Positions 49,718-61,513 of a stretch of DNA of 64,000 nucleotides are shown piece after piece. Within the stretch, counting starts at the first letter, position 1; each line of letters starts with the position of its first letter. A program made the translations under genes and the position numbers. The DNA comes from a candidate division KSB1 bacterium. GTDB lineage: Bacteria > Electryoneota > RPQS01. The stretch spans positions 124,001-188,000 of the forward strand of contig JACRMR010000008.1 of assembly GCA_016214895.1 (NCBI GenBank), given 5' to 3'. The notes under the pieces were generated by a model. The model ran no database searches. It was not told the DNA's origin and worked only from the letters and a program-made list of their open reading frames with translations.

Positions 49718-50728
49718 ATGGACCAATTCGCGAACTTTCGACGACTCGCCTCTCCCCTTGGCGCCGTGGTCGTGCTCCTGATCCTGCTGGCAGGCTGCGC
49801 CATCGAAGAGTCGGAGCGCGGTCTGACCGGTTCCGTCACCGTCAGCCTCTCCGATCCGGAGGGCGTTTTCATCAGCGGCGCCTTGATCTACGTGGATGAT
49901 GTGGCGCAGGCCCAGCGCACACCGGCGACCCTGACTGACGTTGCTATCGGCGCTCGTGTGATTCGCGTCAGCCGTCCCGGTTACAATGACGTCTCCTCCA
50001 CGATCGACGTGCAGTTGAATCAGACCGTCGTTGCCGCGCTGCAAACCACGCTCGCGCCCGTCGGCGCCATTCAACTCGCGGGCGCGCCGGAGGGGACTAC
50101 CTTGTTAATAAACAACCTTCCGTACGGTGTCGCTCCGCCGGAATTCTTCAGCGTTGGCATCGGAAGTTACACGATCTCGGCCTATCTCGAAGGCCACGCG
50201 ACCGAGTTACCTTCATTCTGGAGTCGCGAGATCACGATCGGTGATACCATGGTCCTCTCGCCCCGGTTCACCCCCGTGGCCGCGGGCGCCCATCCCGACA
50301 GCCTCGTTCCTTCGTTTGCGCTCTTCGACGACCGCGACAGCACACAAATGCACCTGGCGCACTATCGCGGGCGCGTGTGCGTCGTAACGTTTTTCTATTA
50401 CTACTGTGCGCCCTGCCTGGCCGAATTTCCGTATATCCAAGCCACCTACGCGGAACCGGACTATGCGGGGAAGGTTGAGTTCTTCGGGGTGGATTCACAG
50501 GACCCCTGGACCCTGTTCGAGCGCTACCGTCGTGATCACCCGACGCTCAGACTGACGTTCCCGCTGGTGTTCGACCCCGGCATGTTTACGACACGTGATT
50601 TTCAGGTGACCGTGCACCCCGCCAACTTCGTAATCGACAAGACCGGCAGAATTCGCTATCGATTCGGTCAGATTACGGAATCCGTTTTGCGTGACGCGAT
50701 TGACGGCTTGCTCGCGGAGGGCAATTGA
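49718..50728 (+). CDS. PEGA-domain lipoprotein fused to a thioredoxin-fold domain
   Basis: 336 residues. Lipobox LLAGC puts the lipid Cys at residue 27. Two PEGA-type beta-sandwich repeats (about 38-110 and 115-165, EGVFISGALIYVDD and EGTTLLINNLPYG) precede an AhpC/TlpA-like domain (about 195-336) with a redox-type Cys230-Ala-Pro-Cys233, the FFGVDSQDPW strand, and the cis-Pro region VHPANFVIDKTG. It is likely anchored in the outer or inner membrane and could reduce or isomerise cargo disulfides. PEGA joined to thioredoxin in one lipoprotein is unusual. Confidence 0.78.
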   Translation: MDQFANFRRLASPLGAVVVLLILLAGCAIEESERGLTGSVTVSLSDPEGVFISGALIYVDDVAQAQRTPATLTDVAIGARVIRVSRPGYNDVSSTIDVQLNQTVVAALQTTLAPVGAIQLAGAPEGTTLLINNLPYGVAPPEFFSVGIGSYTISAYLEGHATELPSFWSREITIGDTMVLSPRFTPVAAGAHPDSLVPSFALFDDRDSTQMHLAHYRGRVCVVTFFYYYCAPCLAEFPYIQATYAEPDYAGKVEFFGVDSQDPWTLFERYRRDHPTLRLTFPLVFDPGMFTTRDFQVTVHPANFVIDKTGRIRYRFGQITESVLRDAIDGLLAEGN

Positions 50729-50828
50729 CGCCGAGCGCGGTTCCCCCTCCCGCCGGAAATCGGATTCTCTGACCCAGACAAGATCGGAAACTTTGCCCAT
50801 TCGCCACTCAGCTCAGGTCGCTAACCCC

Positions 50829-51623
50829 ATGACCAAGCCCTTCATGCTTCCGCTGTTCAGCGTCATCGTGTTGCTCTGCGGCATGACCGTTCAAGCGCAG
50901 ACGTTTTCGTTTGTGCAGCATGATACGCTGATCTACTACCAGAACGTGGACACGGTGTACGAGTTTCATGCGTCCGTCCACAACCTGTTGCCGCAGACCC
51001 ATACGTTGCTCTATACTCTGACGCCGGTGCTGTTCGCGGATACCGCGCGCAACACGAGTATTTGTACCTATGTCGGCTGCTACCCGCCGCACAGTGGATC
51101 TTACTCCGTGCCTCAGGAATATGAGAGCGCGTTTGACGACGACCTTGTCAAGTTCACGGTCTATAACATCATCAGCGACTGGAGCCAGGGCTTCCCGATG
51201 CCCGTTGAGTCGTCCCTCGTTGGCGACTATGTCTTCGACATTACGGTGGCCAACGCCGCCGAGCCGTCCGAATTCACGACGGCACGCGTCTCCCTGATCT
51301 ACGGCGACGGCGTGGTGCCCCAAGTCGTGGCGCCGCTGCCCGGTAATGCGGCTCTCGTCTCCAATTTCCCCAATCCGTTTAACGCCTCGACCGAAATCCG
51401 TTTCTCACTTGCCGAGCACGCACCGGTCCAGCTCGCGGTGTACGACCTGCTGGGACGGGAGGTCGCGAAGCTGGTGGACGGCGCGCAGTTTCACGCCGGT
51501 TCGTACCGCTTGAATTGGAACGCGACTTCGGCGTCCGGCCCGCCGCTGCCGAGCGGCAACTACCTCGTTCGCCTGCTCACGCCCGGCCAATCGGCCACGC
51601 ATCGTATCGCACTGATTCGCTAA
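50829..51623 (+). CDS. Secreted protein with C-terminal T9SS-type sorting domain
   Basis: 264 residues from ATG 50829, chosen because a signal peptide (MLPLFSVIVLLCGMTVQAQ) then sits at the N-terminus. The middle domain is not recognised and holds two Cys close together (CTYVGC). The last 80 residues are a sorting/FlgD-like Ig domain: NFPNPFNASTEIRFSL, VYDLLGREVAKLVDG, LPSGNYLVRLL. Such tails direct proteins through the type IX secretion system or bind surface carriers. No T9SS structural gene is in the window. Confidence 0.8.
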   Translation: MTKPFMLPLFSVIVLLCGMTVQAQTFSFVQHDTLIYYQNVDTVYEFHASVHNLLPQTHTLLYTLTPVLFADTARNTSICTYVGCYPPHSGSYSVPQEYESAFDDDLVKFTVYNIISDWSQGFPMPVESSLVGDYVFDITVANAAEPSEFTTARVSLIYGDGVVPQVVAPLPGNAALVSNFPNPFNASTEIRFSLAEHAPVQLAVYDLLGREVAKLVDGAQFHAGSYRLNWNATSASGPPLPSGNYLVRLLTPGQSATHRIALIR

Positions 51624-51644
51624 TTTCATGTATCCGAGGATCTC

Positions 51645-52139
51645 ATGAAGAGGATGGTTGCATCCGGTCTTGTCACGGCTTGCCTGCTCGCGCTGCTCTC
51701 CGTGTCCGCCTTCGCCGACAGCCGCGACTGGTCGCTCCAGGAAGTGAAAGGGGGCACCTTCAAACTATCCGAGAACCTCGGCGAGTCGCCCGTGCTCCTC
51801 GTGTTCTGGGCGACGTGGTGCGAACCCTGCAAAAAGGAGATTGCGGAACAGCGACCGCTATTCGACTCATATATCTCCAAGGGCGTAAGAGTCGTGCTCG
51901 TCTCCGTGGACACCCAGAAGACGCAGGCTAAGGTCAAGCCGTACGTGGACTCCAAGAAACTCCCCTGGCCTGTGGCGCTGGATCCCAACTCCGAAGTCTT
52001 GAAGCGCTACGGCGGGACATCAGTTCCGTACACGGTGCTGCTCGACAAGCACGGCGATGCCAAATTGAAGATTAAGAGCGCCATCAAAGACTCCAAGAAC
52101 CTGACCACGCAAATCGACCAACTACTGGAAGCAGAGTAA
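51645..52139 (+). CDS. TlpA-like periplasmic thioredoxin
   Basis: 164 residues with a signal peptide (1-24) and the TlpA/ResA core FWATWCEPCKKEIAEQ (Cys59-Glu-Pro-Cys62), LVSVDTQ and SVPYTVLLDKHG (cis-Pro region). It is a thiol-disulfide oxidoreductase outside the cytoplasm. It sits between the sorting-domain protein and an outer-membrane barrel, and complements the PEGA-thioredoxin lipoprotein. The TAATG overlap couples it to the barrel gene. Confidence 0.88.
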   Translation: MKRMVASGLVTACLLALLSVSAFADSRDWSLQEVKGGTFKLSENLGESPVLLVFWATWCEPCKKEIAEQRPLFDSYISKGVRVVLVSVDTQKTQAKVKPYVDSKKLPWPVALDPNSEVLKRYGGTSVPYTVLLDKHGDAKLKIKSAIKDSKNLTTQIDQLLEAE

Positions 52140-53647
52140 TGAGGCTTGCCGTCGCGCTCGTTGTCCTTCTGACCGCCGCGCTCGCGTTTTCGCAGGATAG
52201 CGGCGAATCCGAATTCGAGATCCAGGGCTCCAATATTCTGAAGTACGATCAGGGCGAGGAAGTGGACTTCTCCCGCCCCAACGACAAGCATCCCGACAAT
52301 CTGCTCAAACGGCGCTTTGTCGAGAACCGGCTTCGCCTCGACGTTTATCGCGGTAATCTGCGCGGCGGCATGCGCTTCCTCTATTTCCGGCCGTCCGACA
52401 ACGACCGGAATCAATACGGCCTGCCCGAGGAGACGCGCATCGACAAGCGCTTCATCGAAGCGGCGCTGCATCCCGTTACCTTGCGCGTCGGCCATTACGG
52501 CGATCTCTGGGCCAACGGTCTGGCCTTCAGCTCTTTTGAGAATCGCGATCTTTACTTCGACTCCGAGCTGGACGGTGTTCGCGCCCAGATTGAAGCCGGT
52601 CCCTTGACCGCGATCGGCCTGCGTGGATCCAGTGCCGACGGACTGCTGGTGAAGCGCGCCGATGCGAGCGGGGGGCGCCTCCAATGGCGGGGCGGACTGG
52701 CGGGTCTGGGTTTCAGTTACGTTCGCGTGGACAGCGGTTTTTACGCGGAAACCAACGTGTCGGGGCTTGACCTGAAATTCAATCGCGGCGTCTTCACCCT
52801 GAACCTGGAGCGCGCCTGGAGCGAGACGTTCGTAGCCAGTGGCTCGGGCGAAGGCCACGCGACCTACGTCGGCGTCGTCCTCAGCAAGTGGAGCTGGTCC
52901 CTGCTGGCCGACTACAAGGACTACGACTACGGCTACGTCACTCCGTTTCAGAACCCACCGACCGTCTATCGCGAACTCGGCCCGCGCCTGCTCCAGGGTC
53001 GCGAGCCGCACGTCATGAACATCCCCAACGAAGTGGGCTATCAACTCGAACTCTCCGGACAGACCACGGGCACTACATTCGCGACGTTGCATTATCATGC
53101 CGCCAGCCGTCACGCGCACGATCAATCCGGCATTCCGCGACCAACCCTACAGCAGGTTGATGCTCCGTTCTGGGAGTGTTTCGCCAACGTCGAGCAATCG
53201 CTCCCGCGCGACCGCAGCCTGTTCGTCGAGCTCGGGGCCAACGAGGAAGCCTCAGGCACCTGGCAGCAGCGCAAATGGGTACAGACCCGCTTTTCCACGC
53301 CGCTGCGTGCGATCCAGCTGGATCTCGAGATCGAAGAGCTGTTCCTCACGGACAAGACCCGTAACGACGAGGACTTTCTCGATCAGTTCTATTCCGCCGG
53401 CCTCACCTGGAAGAATGGCTTCTCCGTTTCCGGCGTGTACCAGTTGTCCAACGACCGCGAACTGCAGGACAAGGAGGGACCGAGCTGGCCCTCCGTCGAA
53501 ACCGCGCTGTCCTTCGGTGAAAATGACCGTCATCGCGCGATTCTCTTTTACGGCCGCGAGCGCGGTGGCCTCAAGTGCTCCAACGGCGTGTGTCGTCAAG
53601 TGCAGGCCTTTTCCGGGTTCCGCCTGACCCTCGAAACTTCCTTGTAG
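52139..53647 (+). CDS. DUF6029-like outer-membrane barrel protein
   Basis: 502 residues. Signal peptide (1-19), then EIQGSNILKYDQG, DKHPDNLLKRRFVENRL and LHPVTLRVGHYGDLWANGLAF in order, a pattern I associate with DUF6029-type porins of FCB bacteria. The rest is alternating barrel strands. A loop carries CSNGVC, a possible disulfide, and the last residues LTLETSL form the closing strand. The upstream TlpA suggests a disulfide-bearing barrel. Function unknown. Confidence 0.65.
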   Translation: MRLAVALVVLLTAALAFSQDSGESEFEIQGSNILKYDQGEEVDFSRPNDKHPDNLLKRRFVENRLRLDVYRGNLRGGMRFLYFRPSDNDRNQYGLPEETRIDKRFIEAALHPVTLRVGHYGDLWANGLAFSSFENRDLYFDSELDGVRAQIEAGPLTAIGLRGSSADGLLVKRADASGGRLQWRGGLAGLGFSYVRVDSGFYAETNVSGLDLKFNRGVFTLNLERAWSETFVASGSGEGHATYVGVVLSKWSWSLLADYKDYDYGYVTPFQNPPTVYRELGPRLLQGREPHVMNIPNEVGYQLELSGQTTGTTFATLHYHAASRHAHDQSGIPRPTLQQVDAPFWECFANVEQSLPRDRSLFVELGANEEASGTWQQRKWVQTRFSTPLRAIQLDLEIEELFLTDKTRNDEDFLDQFYSAGLTWKNGFSVSGVYQLSNDRELQDKEGPSWPSVETALSFGENDRHRAILFYGRERGGLKCSNGVCRQVQAFSGFRLTLETSL

Positions 53648-53651
53648 AATC

Positions 53652-55052
53652 ATGAGCGAGCAAGATCCGCGTCGCCGGCTGCCGGCCGTCGAGACGCTGC
53701 GCGGACATCATGCCCTTACGCCTTATCGCGATCGCATTGCCTCCGAGTTCCTCACGCTGGTGATTCGCGAAGCGGTGGAGGCCGCCCGCGGGAAGCTCGA
53801 TGCGGGTTCCCGCGAAGCGGTGGAACAGGCACTCATCGCCGACATTACTTCGCGCCTCGATGCACTGCTCCGGCCGTCGTTGCGTTACGTGCTCAATGCC
53901 ACCGGCGTTATCCTGCACACGGGTCTGGGGCGCGCCCCGCTGAGTGACGATGCCGCGGAGGCGGCGCACTCTGCCGCGAAGTGCTGCAATCTGGAGCTCG
54001 ATCTCGTGAAAGGGGATCGTGGAGACCGGCAGCTTCATGTCGAACGGCTACTTTGTGTGCTGACCGGTGCGGAAGCGGCGCTCGTCGTCAACAACAACGC
54101 GGCCGCGCTCTACCTGACGCTGAACACGCTGGCCCACCGCCGCGAAGTCATCGTCTCCCGCGGCCAGCTCATTGAAATCGGCGGCAGCTTCCGTTTGCCG
54201 GATATCATGTCGCGCGCCGGAGTGGTGTTGCGTGAAGTCGGCACCACGAATCGCACTCGCGCGGCGGACTTCTCCGCGGCGATTACGCCAAAAACCGCGC
54301 TGTTGCTGCGCGCCTATCCGTCTAACTTTCGTATTGACGGATTCTCAGAATCGGTCGGCGTCGCGGAACTCGCCGCGCTCGCTCGCGAACGCTCGCTGCC
54401 GGTCATTGATGATCTTGGAGGGGGTCTGCTTTGGGACTGGACGGCGACTGGCCTTCCCTATGAGCCGAATGTTCGGGAAAGCCTGACTTCGGGCGCCGAT
54501 CTCGTACTCGTTTCCGGCGATAAAGTCCTCGGCGGTCCCCAAGCGGGGATCATTCTCGGCCGTCGCGATCTCGTGACGAAGCTGAAGCAGGCGCCCTTGG
54601 CACGGGTTGTGCGCGCCGACAAGCTGGCGATTGCCGCGCTCGCCGAGACCTTGCGCGCCTATCTCGATCCCCGTGGGCCGATCGCAACATTGCCCGTGTG
54701 GCAAATGCTGACGGTGGACATCGCCTCGCTGCGCCGCCGCGCCGCCGCCGTCATCGTGGCTCTGCGCCCGCTGGTGGAGTGGAAAGTCCTCGAAGTCGTG
54801 GAGAGCAAGTCCGAGACGGGTTCGGGAACGCTGCCCGCCGTTTCCATTCCGAGCATCGCGGTCCGTTGCCTACCGGAGTCCATGACCGCCTCGAAGTTCG
54901 CCCGCGCGTTGCGCGAACGCGACATGCCTGTCGTCGGAACTTTACAACGCGATGCCGTCTGGCTGGATCTGCGGACGATCCCGCCGTCTGATGATGTCCT
55001 GCTGTTGGAGTCCGTACGGATCGCGCTGAAACGGGAGTGTTTTCGTGACTAA
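53652..55052 (+). CDS. selA: L-seryl-tRNA(Sec) selenium transferase
   Basis: 466 residues. RYVLNATGVILHTGLGRAPL, VNNNAAALYLTLN, RGQLIEIGGSFRLPDIM, VGTTNRT and the PLP-lysine motif SGDKVLGGPQAG are canonical SelA. It converts Ser-tRNA(Sec) to Sec-tRNA(Sec) with selenophosphate. It stands six genes from selB. The stop overlaps the nfeD GTG. Confidence 0.95.
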   Translation: MSEQDPRRRLPAVETLRGHHALTPYRDRIASEFLTLVIREAVEAARGKLDAGSREAVEQALIADITSRLDALLRPSLRYVLNATGVILHTGLGRAPLSDDAAEAAHSAAKCCNLELDLVKGDRGDRQLHVERLLCVLTGAEAALVVNNNAAALYLTLNTLAHRREVIVSRGQLIEIGGSFRLPDIMSRAGVVLREVGTTNRTRAADFSAAITPKTALLLRAYPSNFRIDGFSESVGVAELAALARERSLPVIDDLGGGLLWDWTATGLPYEPNVRESLTSGADLVLVSGDKVLGGPQAGIILGRRDLVTKLKQAPLARVVRADKLAIAALAETLRAYLDPRGPIATLPVWQMLTVDIASLRRRAAAVIVALRPLVEWKVLEVVESKSETGSGTLPAVSIPSIAVRCLPESMTASKFARALRERDMPVVGTLQRDAVWLDLRTIPPSDDVLLLESVRIALKRECFRD

Positions 55053-56349: not shown

Positions 56350-57126
56350 ATGTTACCCGTTCTGGCATTCCTGCTCGTCTTCATCATCTTCATCTTTACG
56401 ACCGCCGTTCGCATTCTGAACGAATACGAGCGCGGCGTGATCTTCCGGCTCGGTCGTTTCATCGGCGTCAAAGGGCCCGGTCTGATTCTGTTGATCCCGC
56501 TCGTGGATCGCATGGTGAAGGTCAGTCTCCGCACCGTGGTGTTTGATGTGCCGCCGCAGGACGTGATCACGCGCGATAACGTGTCGTTGCAGGTCAATGC
56601 CGTCGTTTACTTCCGCGTCCTCACGCCGGACCGCGCCATCATCGAAGTTGAGAATTTCATGTTCGCGACGAGTCAGCTTTCACAAACGACCCTGCGCAGC
56701 GTGTTGGGCCAGGTCGAATTGGACGAGCTGCTCTCCCATCGCGAGAAGATCAACGATCAGCTGCAATCGATCATCGACAGTCAGACGGAACCATGGGGCA
56801 TCAAGGTGTCCATGGTTGAAATCAAGCACGTCGATCTCCCGCAAGAGATGAAGCGCGCGATGGCGAAGCAGGCCGAGGCCGAGCGCGAGCGCCGCGCCAA
56901 AGTCATCTCCGCCGAAGGCGAACGCCAGGCCGCCGGAGTGCTTTCCGAAGCCGCGGGTGTCATGGAACAACATCCGATGTCCATTCAGCTCCGCTACTTG
57001 CAGACGCTGATCGAGGTGGCGTCGGAAAACAACTCCACGACGATCTTCCCGCTGCCGATTGACCTCATTACTCCGTTCCTGCGTAAGGCGGTGGACGGTT
57101 CCGGCGGAAGTAACAAGACCACATGA
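56350..57126 (+). CDS. SPFH/Band 7 (slipin) family protein
   Basis: 258 residues: a short N-terminal membrane hairpin, [21 protein letters not shown], the PHB/SPFH domain ([20 protein letters not shown]) and a helical C-terminus ([34 protein letters not shown]) as in slipins. Partner of the NfeD protein upstream, from which it is separated by 24 bases including a GGAGAGG ribosome site. The stop overlaps the next ATG. Confidence 0.93.
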
Positions 57127-58571
57127 CGACACCAACTCGCAGACGACGTGGATACGGTTCGGGTGGCCGCGGTCCCGGCATGGCCGTGGGGATCCTCTGG
57201 GCGCTTGGCAAAGTGTTCCTTCCCCTGATCGCGATTGCGGGCATCGCCTATCTCGTGCTCCACTATCGGTCCGGCAACACCGGATCGCTGCGAGTGACCA
57301 CCTCGGTCCCGGGGGCCGAAGTTCTGATCGGCGGGATGCAGACCGGGATGTTGTCGGATACGACCGTCTTGCTCGTGCCCACCGGCCGGAAGATTGTCAC
57401 GGTGCGCAAGGCCAATTACATTTCGGACCCGGAATTTGCCTCGGTGAGAATCGGCGATGATTCTCTGACAAGCGTTCGCTTTGTTCTCCGCCCGGCCTCG
57501 CAGGTCCTCAGAACCGACTCGATTCCCCCGTTGCGCTCCGTGCGCCAGGAGATCTTCAGCACTGGCGAACCGGTGCTGGCGGTGCCGCCGGCTCCCCGCG
57601 TTCGTCCGCTGGTGAATTTTGAGCGCCGCTCGGCGCCGCCGCGCGAGCCGGTATCACAAGAACCGCTCGCGCCCGCGCACGAACCGGATTCGGCGCCGCC
57701 GGAGTCCGCTCCGCCTGCCGAAGACCAATGGACATCGGACACGTTCTCCGAAGAAACGACTTCGTTGGTCGGAACGGAGATCACGGTTTCGTCCAACCCC
57801 GAAGGCGCGCGCATCTTCGTCAACGGCGCCCCGACGCCGCGCACCACACCCTATACGTTTCGCGGCCTCGATCGCGGAATCTACGTGTTTCGCGTAGAGT
57901 CCGACGCCGCACTGGCCGAACCCGACAGCATCACCGTCGCGCTGTCCCTCGATGATCAACATGAACTCGCGTCCTTTAACGTACTCCCGGACCTCACGAT
58001 TCCCAAGCCGACTCTCGTCGTATCTACGGCGCCGCTTGCGGCCGGGATTTCGGTGAACGGTAAGAACGCGGGAGTCGGCGGGGTCACGCAGGAACTCGCA
58101 TACGGTGTCTATCAAATCGAGTTCGCCGAGGTCCCGGGTTATCTTCGGCCCGAGGCGATGACCGTCGAGCTCACTCGTGACCAACCGCGCGTTGAGCTGC
58201 GGGGCGACTATCAGAAGCTGATTGGCAATTCCTATCTCGCACTGTTGCCCGGCGAGGAGTTCGAGAAGTTCGATCCGACGCTGCTGCGCGTGTACGTCGA
58301 TAACGAGCTCGTCCTCGACGGTCCCGACAGCACGTTTGATGTTTCCCTCGTTGGCAAGATCGCGGCGGGCAACCGCCTGATCCGCGTGCAATACGGCGAA
58401 CTCACGAACGACATCCACGTCGAACTGCAGGACGGGCAGGTCTCCGAAATCGTCTTCCGCATCGAGAGTTTCTTCAGTAAACGCTCGCTCCGCCTGCGTG
58501 AGCGCAACACGGTGGCGCTTGAGAAGTGGCAGGAAAAGTCCCGTCGCCTCACCGTACTGAACCTCGGCTAA
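57123..58571 (+). CDS. Membrane-anchored PEGA-repeat protein coupled to the NfeD-slipin pair
   Basis: 482 residues. One membrane helix (about 18-45) after a basic Gly-rich tail, a first PEGA-like domain (55-120), a Pro/Ser/Glu linker (125-205), two more PEGA-like repeats (about 215-290, [17 protein letters not shown]; and 300-370, [15 protein letters not shown]) and a beta-rich C-terminus (375-482). It would be extracytoplasmic and adhesive to envelope or cell wall. ATGA overlap with the slipin gene argues for a shared complex. Confidence 0.75.
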
Positions 58572-59614: not shown

Positions 59615-61513
59615 GTGTCGCGGATCATCGTCGGCACGGCGGGTCACATTGACCACGGAAAATCGTCGCTGGTTCGCGCGCTGACGGGCACGGATCCCGA
59701 CCGTCTGCCGGAGGAGCAGAAGCGCGGCATTACTATCGATCTTGGCTTCGCCTTTCTCGACGACGTCGCCGCGATCATTGACGTTCCCGGTCACGAAAAG
59801 TTCATTCGCAATATGGTCGCCGGCGCCTCGACGGTTGACTTCGCCATTCTCGTGGTCGCCGCCGACGATGGCGTCATGCCGCAGACCACGGAGCATCTGC
59901 AGATCCTTCGCCTGCTCGGAGTCCGCCGCGGTTGCGTGGTCGTTACCAAGCTCTCCATGGTGGAGCCTGAGTGGCTCGAGCTGGTAGTCGATCAGGTGCA
60001 AAAGGCCACGCGTCGCACGTTCCTTGAGGACGGCGAGATCTTCCGCGTCGATAGCTTGCGCGGCGACGGCATACGGGAATTCCGGGCCTGGCTTGTCAGC
60101 ACGCTTTCCGCGATCGAACCTCGCGCGGATCGCGGACTGTACCGTCAGCCGGTCGATCGCGTCTTCACGGTGAAGGGCCGCGGGACCGTAATCACCGGGA
60201 CCGTGATCTCCGGCGCCTTGACTCGTGAAACAGCCGTGCGCGCCTATCCCGGCGATGCTCTCTTCCGCGTCAAACACATCGAGTCCCACGCCAGCGAAGT
60301 GGAGCAGGTCCGGCCGGGCCAGCGCGCCGCTCTGAATCTGCTCGGCGATACCGACCAGCTTGAGCGCGGCGTCACCATCGGACCGCCGACCGGCCTGCTC
60401 GCGTCAACGCGGGTGCTCGTGCGAATCGAGCAGCTTGAGTCGGTCGAGCCGCTGCGCGATCGCCAGCGCATCCGCGTGTTGACCGGCACGCAGGAGGTCA
60501 TCGGCCGCGTCCAGTTGCTCGCGACGGACTCAGGGTTTGCGGTTGCGAACCTCTTACTGGAAGAACCGATCGTCGCCGCTTGGCGCGATCACTTCATTGT
60601 CAGGCGCTATTCCCCGCTCGAGACACTGGGCGGTGGGATCGTGCTCGATCCGCAACCTCCGGCATTTCACGTCAAGCGACTCGCGCTGGAGCTTAGCGCT
60701 GCTCGCGCCCTCGCTGCGGAATCCATTGACGCGGCCATCGCGGCCTACGTCGCCGCTCGCGCGGACTTCGGACTCGCTCTGGATCACCTTGCCGCTGCCT
60801 TCGCGGTGCCGCTGGCCTGGCTCGGCACGCGGATTCAGTCGCCGCCGTTATCGGATCAGATCGTCAAACTCAATGCCGTGCTCTTCAGAACCGGGCGGCT
60901 GCTTGAGATCGAGAGCGCAATTGTGGAGCGGCTGAAGTCGCTCTTTTCATCTTCGGCCGGACAGGTCGGCTTCGCGCCGGCGTCGCTCCGGGACCGCGCG
61001 CTCCGCGACCTTCCCGATCCCGCCCTCGACTCGATAATTGTTCGACTCGTGGAGCGGTCTCGCCTCGCGCGCGAAGGCGGGTTGTTGCGCTTCCCGGAAC
61101 GCAAGATCGCGCTCACGCCTGACCAGCAACGCCTGATGGATCGCCTGAATCCGGTCTTGCACGCCGCTGGCTTCACTCCGCCGTCGTCCGAGCTGCTCGC
61201 TGAACAGATCGCCGCGCCGCAAGCCGACGTGGCGCGCGCCCTCGTGCTGATGGAACGCCTCGGCAAGTGCCGGCGGCTCGGCGTGGACATGTTCTTCGAC
61301 GCGGAACGCTTCGCCGAGGCGGTTGACGCCGTTCAACGCGGCCTGCGCGACGCGCGCGAACTCAGCGTCGCCGACGTCAGCAAGCTGCTCAGTTCTTCTC
61401 GCAAGTATGTCGTCCCGCTGCTCGAGTACCTCGACGAGCGTGGCATCACTCAACGCAACGGGAACGTTCGTGTCGCCGGGCGCAATGCCGCCGTCGCCCA
61501 GTCAAAGGTATGA
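59615..61513 (+). CDS. selB: Selenocysteine-specific translation elongation factor
   Basis: 632 residues from GTG 59615. EF-Tu-like G domain with [14 protein letters not shown] (P-loop), the [11 protein letters not shown] switch and [15 protein letters not shown]; two beta-barrel domains; then a C-terminal winged-helix part (from about 430) as in bacterial SelB, which binds the SECIS hairpin. Oddity: the G4 motif normally TKxD reads TKLS (residues 111-114, Ser codon at 59954), so the guanine-specificity Asp is missing. ATG of gpmI overlaps the stop. Confidence 0.93.

Follow-up and report, generated by a model that had tools for sequence, protein, structure and literature searches.

The 64,000-nucleotide stretch of DNA analysed here (the window; positions 124,001 to 188,000 of contig JACRMR010000008.1, forward strand, assembly GCA_016214895.1, from a candidate division KSB1 bacterium of the phylum Electryoneota) carries a four-gene block that encodes, in order, a lipoprotein joining PEGA and TlpA-type thioredoxin domains (PEGA-TlpA), a Cys-pair protein with a sorting tail for the type IX secretion system (T9SS), a soluble TlpA and a DUF6029 outer-membrane barrel. 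Judged from sequence, this module is a real, ancient, cysteine-centred gene set. We interpret it as an envelope thiol–disulfide exchange module organised around one outer-membrane barrel and acting at both faces, and we give this reading, which includes a possible relay across the membrane, a probability of about 0.5. A sequence-only reading of the window had already suggested that these four genes may serve to form or reduce disulfides in surface proteins at the outer membrane; ORFs (open reading frames), Pfam and NCBIfam profiles confirmed all four in their places, and the proposal is well supported as a gene module, although its four-part makeup gave way to a core of TlpA and barrel.

Linkage in other genomes had been set beforehand as the test that could refute the proposal. 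A TlpA gene lies immediately upstream of DUF6029 in 66/69 loci from several phyla: 55 of 58 distinct loci, with identical proteins counted once, and 11 of 11 further loci obtained by family or protein search. The exceptions are L046, L047 and L040, the last of which is cut by a contig edge. In the 889,881 bases that hold the 58 loci there is a single other TlpA-like ORF of at least 60 bits, and the 55/58 adjacency set against this one ORF rules out chance linkage. Within the host phylum DUF6029 occurs in 32/39 genomes; a motif scan added carriers among Ignavibacteria, Bacteroidetes, Chlorobiota and Zixibacteria, and in the phylum of genome G053 Pfam alone recovers the barrel from 7/10 genomes, where the CxxGxC loop and the upstream TlpA are both present in 7/7. 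The conservation of Cys pairs that the proposal also called for holds in all four proteins. CxxGxC is found in 39/39 barrels identified without using the motif (the window, L031-L057 and L125-L135), 21 of which have no further Cys after residue 25; the 49 loci found by the pattern [ED]RGGL[KRV]C[ST][SN]G keep the Cys loop by construction and were therefore excluded from this count. Both catalytic Cys are kept in 66/66 distinct DUF6029-adjacent TlpAs, the catalytic CxxC in 15/15 aligned PEGA-TlpA homologues, and the pair of the immunoglobulin (Ig)-like domain in 13/13 aligned homologues, including three fused to the lipoprotein.

Gene order might be conserved without joint function if a co-directional run were simply inherited as a whole, and the window's own and sister families do retain the entire fab-rnc-nudix-module-selA-nfeD run, with the four-slot block inside it. 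The module, however, outlives its neighbours: in L041-L045, from other families of the host phylum, the four-slot block is free-standing and the flanking genes are gone. In L048-L057 the TlpA–DUF6029 pair alone is left, and the surroundings change again in other phyla. The free-standing blocks rule out inheritance of a long operon as the sole cause, and an order kept without joint function, largely refuted by these arrangements, is very improbable.

The barrel, which the sequence-only reading had described as one with a CSNGVC loop, belongs to DUF6029 (PF19494; 60.6 bits in two stretches against a Pfam cut-off of 27). DUF6029 is its sole profile match at E values up to 1, and the usher profile did not match. 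An AlphaFold model built on a 45-sequence alignment (pLDDT, the predicted local distance difference test, 92.7; pTM, the predicted template-modelling score, 0.86) has 24 counted strands, with hairpin strands at residues 477-481 and 484-488. Because the long loops of this model come after odd strands, the CxxGxC hairpin in the last loop is predicted to face the extracellular side, assuming that the N- and C-termini are periplasmic. The surrounding GxxRxGxxCxxGxC is the most conserved element of the barrel: loop 23 reaches 3.58 bits, the highest value among the loops, with a strand mean of 2.23, and only loops 5, 13 and 23 are individually conspicuous in conservation.

The nearest solved folds according to VIA are usher pores (FimD 3ohn; Z 19.9, root-mean-square deviation 4.2, 370/468 residues aligned, 10% identity). 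MtrB of the Mtr complex gives a Z of 15.4 to the barrel model, and Foldseek and VIA also return OprD-type porins and AlgE. The likeness of the model to ushers and MtrB would be one of size and fold only. The porin and AlgE matches lend some weight to another view, in which DUF6029 would transport a polysaccharide or a small ligand and the thiol proteins encoded next to it would be regulators or incidental to it. PMC9603273, the one paper found that names DUF6029, notes that some Wzi barrels resemble it by HHpred and proposes a potential role in polysaccharide secretion, a guess beyond which DUF6029 has no known function. Fold likeness among barrels is weak functional evidence, however; polysaccharide genes were not recognised by eye in the neighbourhoods read (no OPX profile search was made), and transport accounts neither for the TlpA linkage nor for the invariant Cys. 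We consider it quite unlikely.

The soluble TlpA (AhpC-TSA, 76.6 bits, cut-off 26) holds its catalytic pair C59-E-P-C62 in the motif TWCEPCKK. Its best relative in the PDB is ResA (4nmu, E 1.4e-17), and with 89.4 bits against a cut-off of 170 for the curated ResA subfamily NF002854 it is a relative of ResA and not ResA itself. Most DUF6029-adjacent copies share the CxPC motif, and ResA-like CxPC thioredoxins are known for reduction rather than oxidation. CcdA stands directly before TlpA in L082, L084 and L097 (Pfam DsbD_TM at 49.6 bits for L082, by eye for L084 and L097), with a thioredoxin gene also there in L082 and L084; thus an inner-membrane reductant, a carrier, the barrel and an anchored acceptor can sit in one operon. 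A search of the window's genome recovered a gene of the DsbD type and no VKOR. CcdA, the DsbD-type gene, the missing VKOR and the TGA codons described below favour reduction over oxidation, without settling the direction.

A second thioredoxin-fold gene, usually provided with a lipoprotein or T9SS anchor, adjoins 42/69 barrels, a figure summed over separate locus sets (15/33 + 22/28 + 1/1 + 4/7). Its identity changes with lineage. PEGA-TlpA fills the place in 15 of the 33 Electryoneota loci, and an Omp28-type CxxC protein directly after DUF6029 does so in 22 of the 28 loci from Ignavibacteria, Bacteroidetes, Chlorobiota and Zixibacteria, as called by a profile seeded from 8 of those 22; Pfam places it above cut-off in the four checked (L082, L085, L090 and L106). 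It is missing in L078-L080, and in L081, L083 and L098 the sequence stops no more than about 340 bases from the barrel. Most Omp28-type partners have a lipoprotein-like start; L090 and L106 carry a T9SS tail instead. The single G039 locus (1/1) reads T9SS-tailed Ig protein with a Cys pair, PEGA-Omp28 lipoprotein, TlpA, DUF6029, which are the window's four slots with Omp28 substituting for the TlpA domain. Another kind of second thioredoxin is present in 4/7 loci in the phylum of G053: L125, L126 and L131 encode fn3 lipoproteins whose C-terminal part is a thioredoxin domain, and L128 encodes a form with a signal peptide. Two lineages swap the lipoprotein anchor and the T9SS tail on the same domain, which may indicate that both forms end up on the surface.

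In three of these second thioredoxins an in-frame TGA stands where the codon of the first catalytic Cys would be (L125, WESW-TGA-TYC; L126, FATW-TGA-GGC; L128, WERT-TGA-GSC). SelA is encoded in 7/7 genomes in the phylum of G053, and the three are probable selenoproteins; selenocysteine at this position would indicate an active redox enzyme, not a structural domain. TGA readthrough applied to all other loci gave matches outside the thioredoxin motif, except for the same sequence in L121. Rfam returned no match on L125, and on the window nothing but the tRNA. Two features of the Omp28-bearing loci may be recorded here: in L082 the CcdA-TlpA-DUF6029-Omp28 run has genes for an ArsP-type permease and for an SBF-family transporter (PF01758) upstream of it, perhaps as an arsenic-related island, and a gene taken by eye as nuoH-like is found directly upstream of TlpA-DUF6029-Omp28 in many Ignavibacteria-type loci, namely L085, L087, L092, L095, L096, L101 and L102.

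The main rival to a relay is maturation only, with TlpA forming or shuffling the single essential disulfide of the barrel, the barrel serving as an ordinary channel or binder, and the anchored protein acting as a cap or ligand binder. Strict TlpA–barrel pairing would suffice for it, together with an invariant Cys pair whose position resembles that of a cross-strand disulfide, and there is a precedent in LptD, whose native disulfides, according to PMC10567701, control translocon activation and need DsbA, DsbC being essential without LptM. Maturation leaves unexplained, however, the second CxxC thioredoxin-fold protein, which recurs in four architectures, and the selenocysteine-type codons in it. 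The TlpA is moreover ResA-like and mostly CxPC, a type tied to reduction, not oxidation, and we regard maturation alone as somewhat unlikely.

The lipoprotein and the T9SS-tailed protein of the window had been counted as full module parts; both are linked to the core, but they turned out to be exchangeable outer parts. PEGA-TlpA matches PEGA (46.8 bits, cut-off 20.8) and AhpC-TSA (51.2 bits, cut-off 26) in Pfam, and Omp28 (PF11551) is not among its matches at E values up to 1; its closest solved relatives are ResA. The lipobox LAGC, read from the sequence, would place the lipid on Cys27, and the C-terminal thioredoxin-fold domain has the pair C230-A-P-C233. A lipobox was found by pattern in 11 of the 12 homologues with a start, and by eye in the twelfth (LTAGC in L031).

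The sorting-tail protein scores above cut-off for TIGR04183 (33.1 bits, cut-off 23) and FlgD_ig (30 bits, cut-off 27), and below it for Por_Secre_tail (PF18962; 21.5 bits, cut-off 27). Its mechanical ORF runs from 50691, with an ATG and signal peptide at 50829. The Ig-like domain carries the motif C79-x4-C84-Y-P-P, the model has a pLDDT of 75, and structure search returned only generic Ig/fn3-like matches with TM-scores (template-modelling scores) of 0.2-0.3; the own genome has one copy. This protein had been taken for cargo. Its sorting tail agrees with that; yet in three genera of the window's family (L031, L032 and L035) the Cys-pair domain is fused to PEGA-TlpA and the T9SS tail is lost, so that the supposed cargo can occur within the lipoprotein chain and may therefore be a component, not a client. 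Three other genera of the family (L034, L036 and L037) are without the Cys-pair domain.

The T9SS translocon protein SprA (TIGR04189) scores 602.5 bits in the window's genome (cut-off 200) and exceeds the cut-off in 35/39 genomes of the host phylum and in G039, and our literature search found nothing pairing T9SS with the name Electryoneota. SprA was found in 0/7 genomes in the phylum of G053; the TlpA–DUF6029 core is therefore independent of T9SS, and the sorting-tail protein comes as an addition in genomes that have T9SS. Large T9SS-tailed proteins, some of them subtilase- or gingipain-like by eye, occur upstream of TlpA–DUF6029 in several Electryoneota families (L041-L057).

In the thiol–disulfide exchange module as we envision it, an inner-membrane DsbD/CcdA protein would feed electrons to the soluble TlpA, which would approach the barrel's Cys pair from the periplasm and exchange thiols with it, either before the barrel is inserted or by way of its lumen. 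At the outer membrane the anchored thioredoxin-fold protein would do likewise, and TlpA and the anchored protein would set or use the redox state of the hairpin and of the Cys-pair domain; in the window, PEGA-TlpA and the Ig protein exported by T9SS would be the anchored parts. A relay version would pass electrons from CcdA/DsbD in the inner membrane to TlpA and on, through or at the DUF6029 barrel by means of its Cys hairpin, to Omp28, PEGA-TlpA or the selenocysteine form on the surface, the barrel complex then being a dithiol conduit that works without haems and keeps surface proteins reduced or correctly paired. Taken by itself, this version is unlikely.

Several observations weigh against the exchange module. 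L046 and L047 have no adjacent TlpA; the PEGA and cargo genes are absent from many families of the host phylum, and for 27/69 barrels, some of them at contig ends, the surrounding sequence yielded no second thioredoxin gene. The two Cys of the hairpin might simply form a structural disulfide, and conservation of the extracellular loops, taken together, does not clearly exceed that of the strands (822/10,000 permutations gave a difference as large). The Bacteroidetes lipoprotein export signal, C-X-K-(D/E)2 or Q-A-(D/E)2, is not matched by the window's lipoprotein (CAIEES) or by its homologues, mostly C[AED]IEE; in this phylum, which is another one, the lipoprotein may still be surface-exposed.

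Among known systems, LptD–LptE with DsbA and DsbC comes close in combining a barrel and a lipoprotein whose activity needs disulfides handled by periplasmic thioredoxin-fold enzymes (PMC10567701). In contrast, our barrel has no LptD profile match, the gene for the thiol factor adjoins that of the barrel, the lipoprotein is itself a thioredoxin-fold protein, and both Cys of the pair sit in one hairpin loop. HBP35 of Porphyromonas gingivalis, as described in PMC3120885, is likewise a thioredoxin-motif protein brought to the cell surface by T9SS, but it is a single chain with a C-terminal domain (CTD). Omp28 proteins fill the anchored thioredoxin slot in Ignavibacteria and Zixibacteria and are once fused to PEGA, whereas the window's lipoprotein has a TlpA domain in that place. 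The soluble TlpA is a clear relative of the ResA/TlpA/StoA enzymes that work with CcdA or DsbD, and the CcdA-bearing operons described above fit that likeness. Known ResA/TlpA/StoA enzymes serve cytochrome c or spore proteins, whereas the present TlpAs are tied to an outer-membrane barrel. MtrCAB, with a large barrel (MtrB) and redox partners on both faces, offers an analogy and not membership, as it uses haems, not thiols, and resembles the module only in fold size.

Literature searches on Omp28 and on thiol transfer across the outer membrane, in a collection mostly without subscription papers, returned nothing on this arrangement, and the combination of TlpA, a Cys-pair barrel and an anchored thioredoxin appears to be uncharacterised. 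To our knowledge, no reductant pathway reaches outside the outer membrane. Through the TlpA linkage, the invariant Cys pair and the anchored partner, the DUF6029 family gains a possible role in the thiol chemistry of the envelope that can be tested, and the module supplies candidate genes for disulfide control outside the outer membrane in bacteria that export by T9SS or as surface lipoproteins. A relay, if true, would give haem conduits such as MtrCAB a counterpart based on dithiols.

Table 1. Coordinates of the module, its motifs and associated genes (window positions unless a locus or genome is named).
Feature	Position	Strand	Basis
PEGA-TlpA lipoprotein, 336 aa	49718..50728	+	PEGA and AhpC-TSA profiles
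Lipid Cys27 of PEGA-TlpA	49796-49798		lipobox read from sequence
C230-A-P-C233 of PEGA-TlpA	50405-50416		
Protein with signal peptide, Ig-like domain, Cys pair and T9SS sorting tail	50829..51623	+	TIGR04183
C79-x4-C84-Y-P-P of the Ig-like domain	51063-51080		
Soluble periplasmic TlpA/ResA-like thioredoxin, signal peptide	51645..52139	+	AhpC-TSA
C59-E-P-C62 of soluble TlpA	51819-51830		
DUF6029 outer-membrane barrel, 24 predicted strands	52139..53647	+	PF19494, AlphaFold
CxxGxC hairpin C480-S-N-G-V-C485, strands 23/24	53576..53593	+	conservation and model
selA	53652-55052		
Second PEGA protein	57123-58571		
selB-like gene	59615-61513		
SprA-type T9SS translocon gene, host phylum	G000:C20:296773-303078		
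Candidate selenoprotein, thioredoxin domain by DUF6029	L125 9511-11889		
Candidate selenoprotein, thioredoxin domain by DUF6029	L126 near 11999		
Candidate selenoprotein, thioredoxin domain by DUF6029	L128 7120-8300		
ArsP-type permease and SBF-family transporter	L082 5242-7437		

Successive gaps through the block measure 18, 100, 21, -1 and 4 bases, and the TlpA stop and barrel start share one base (TAATG). Co-directional flanking genes are fabD, fabG, acpP, fabF, rnc and nudix before the block and selA, nfeD, SPFH, PEGA and selB after it, on ORF-based gene calls with names partly assigned by eye. The selA and selB-like genes enclose the nfeD, SPFH and PEGA genes; no selenocysteine codon was found in the window's module, so the neighbouring selA is not explained by a selenocysteine residue there. 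The order DUF6029-selA-nfeD is seen again in several families of the host phylum, and the own and sister families also retain, within this operon, the second PEGA protein with its three PEGA stretches.

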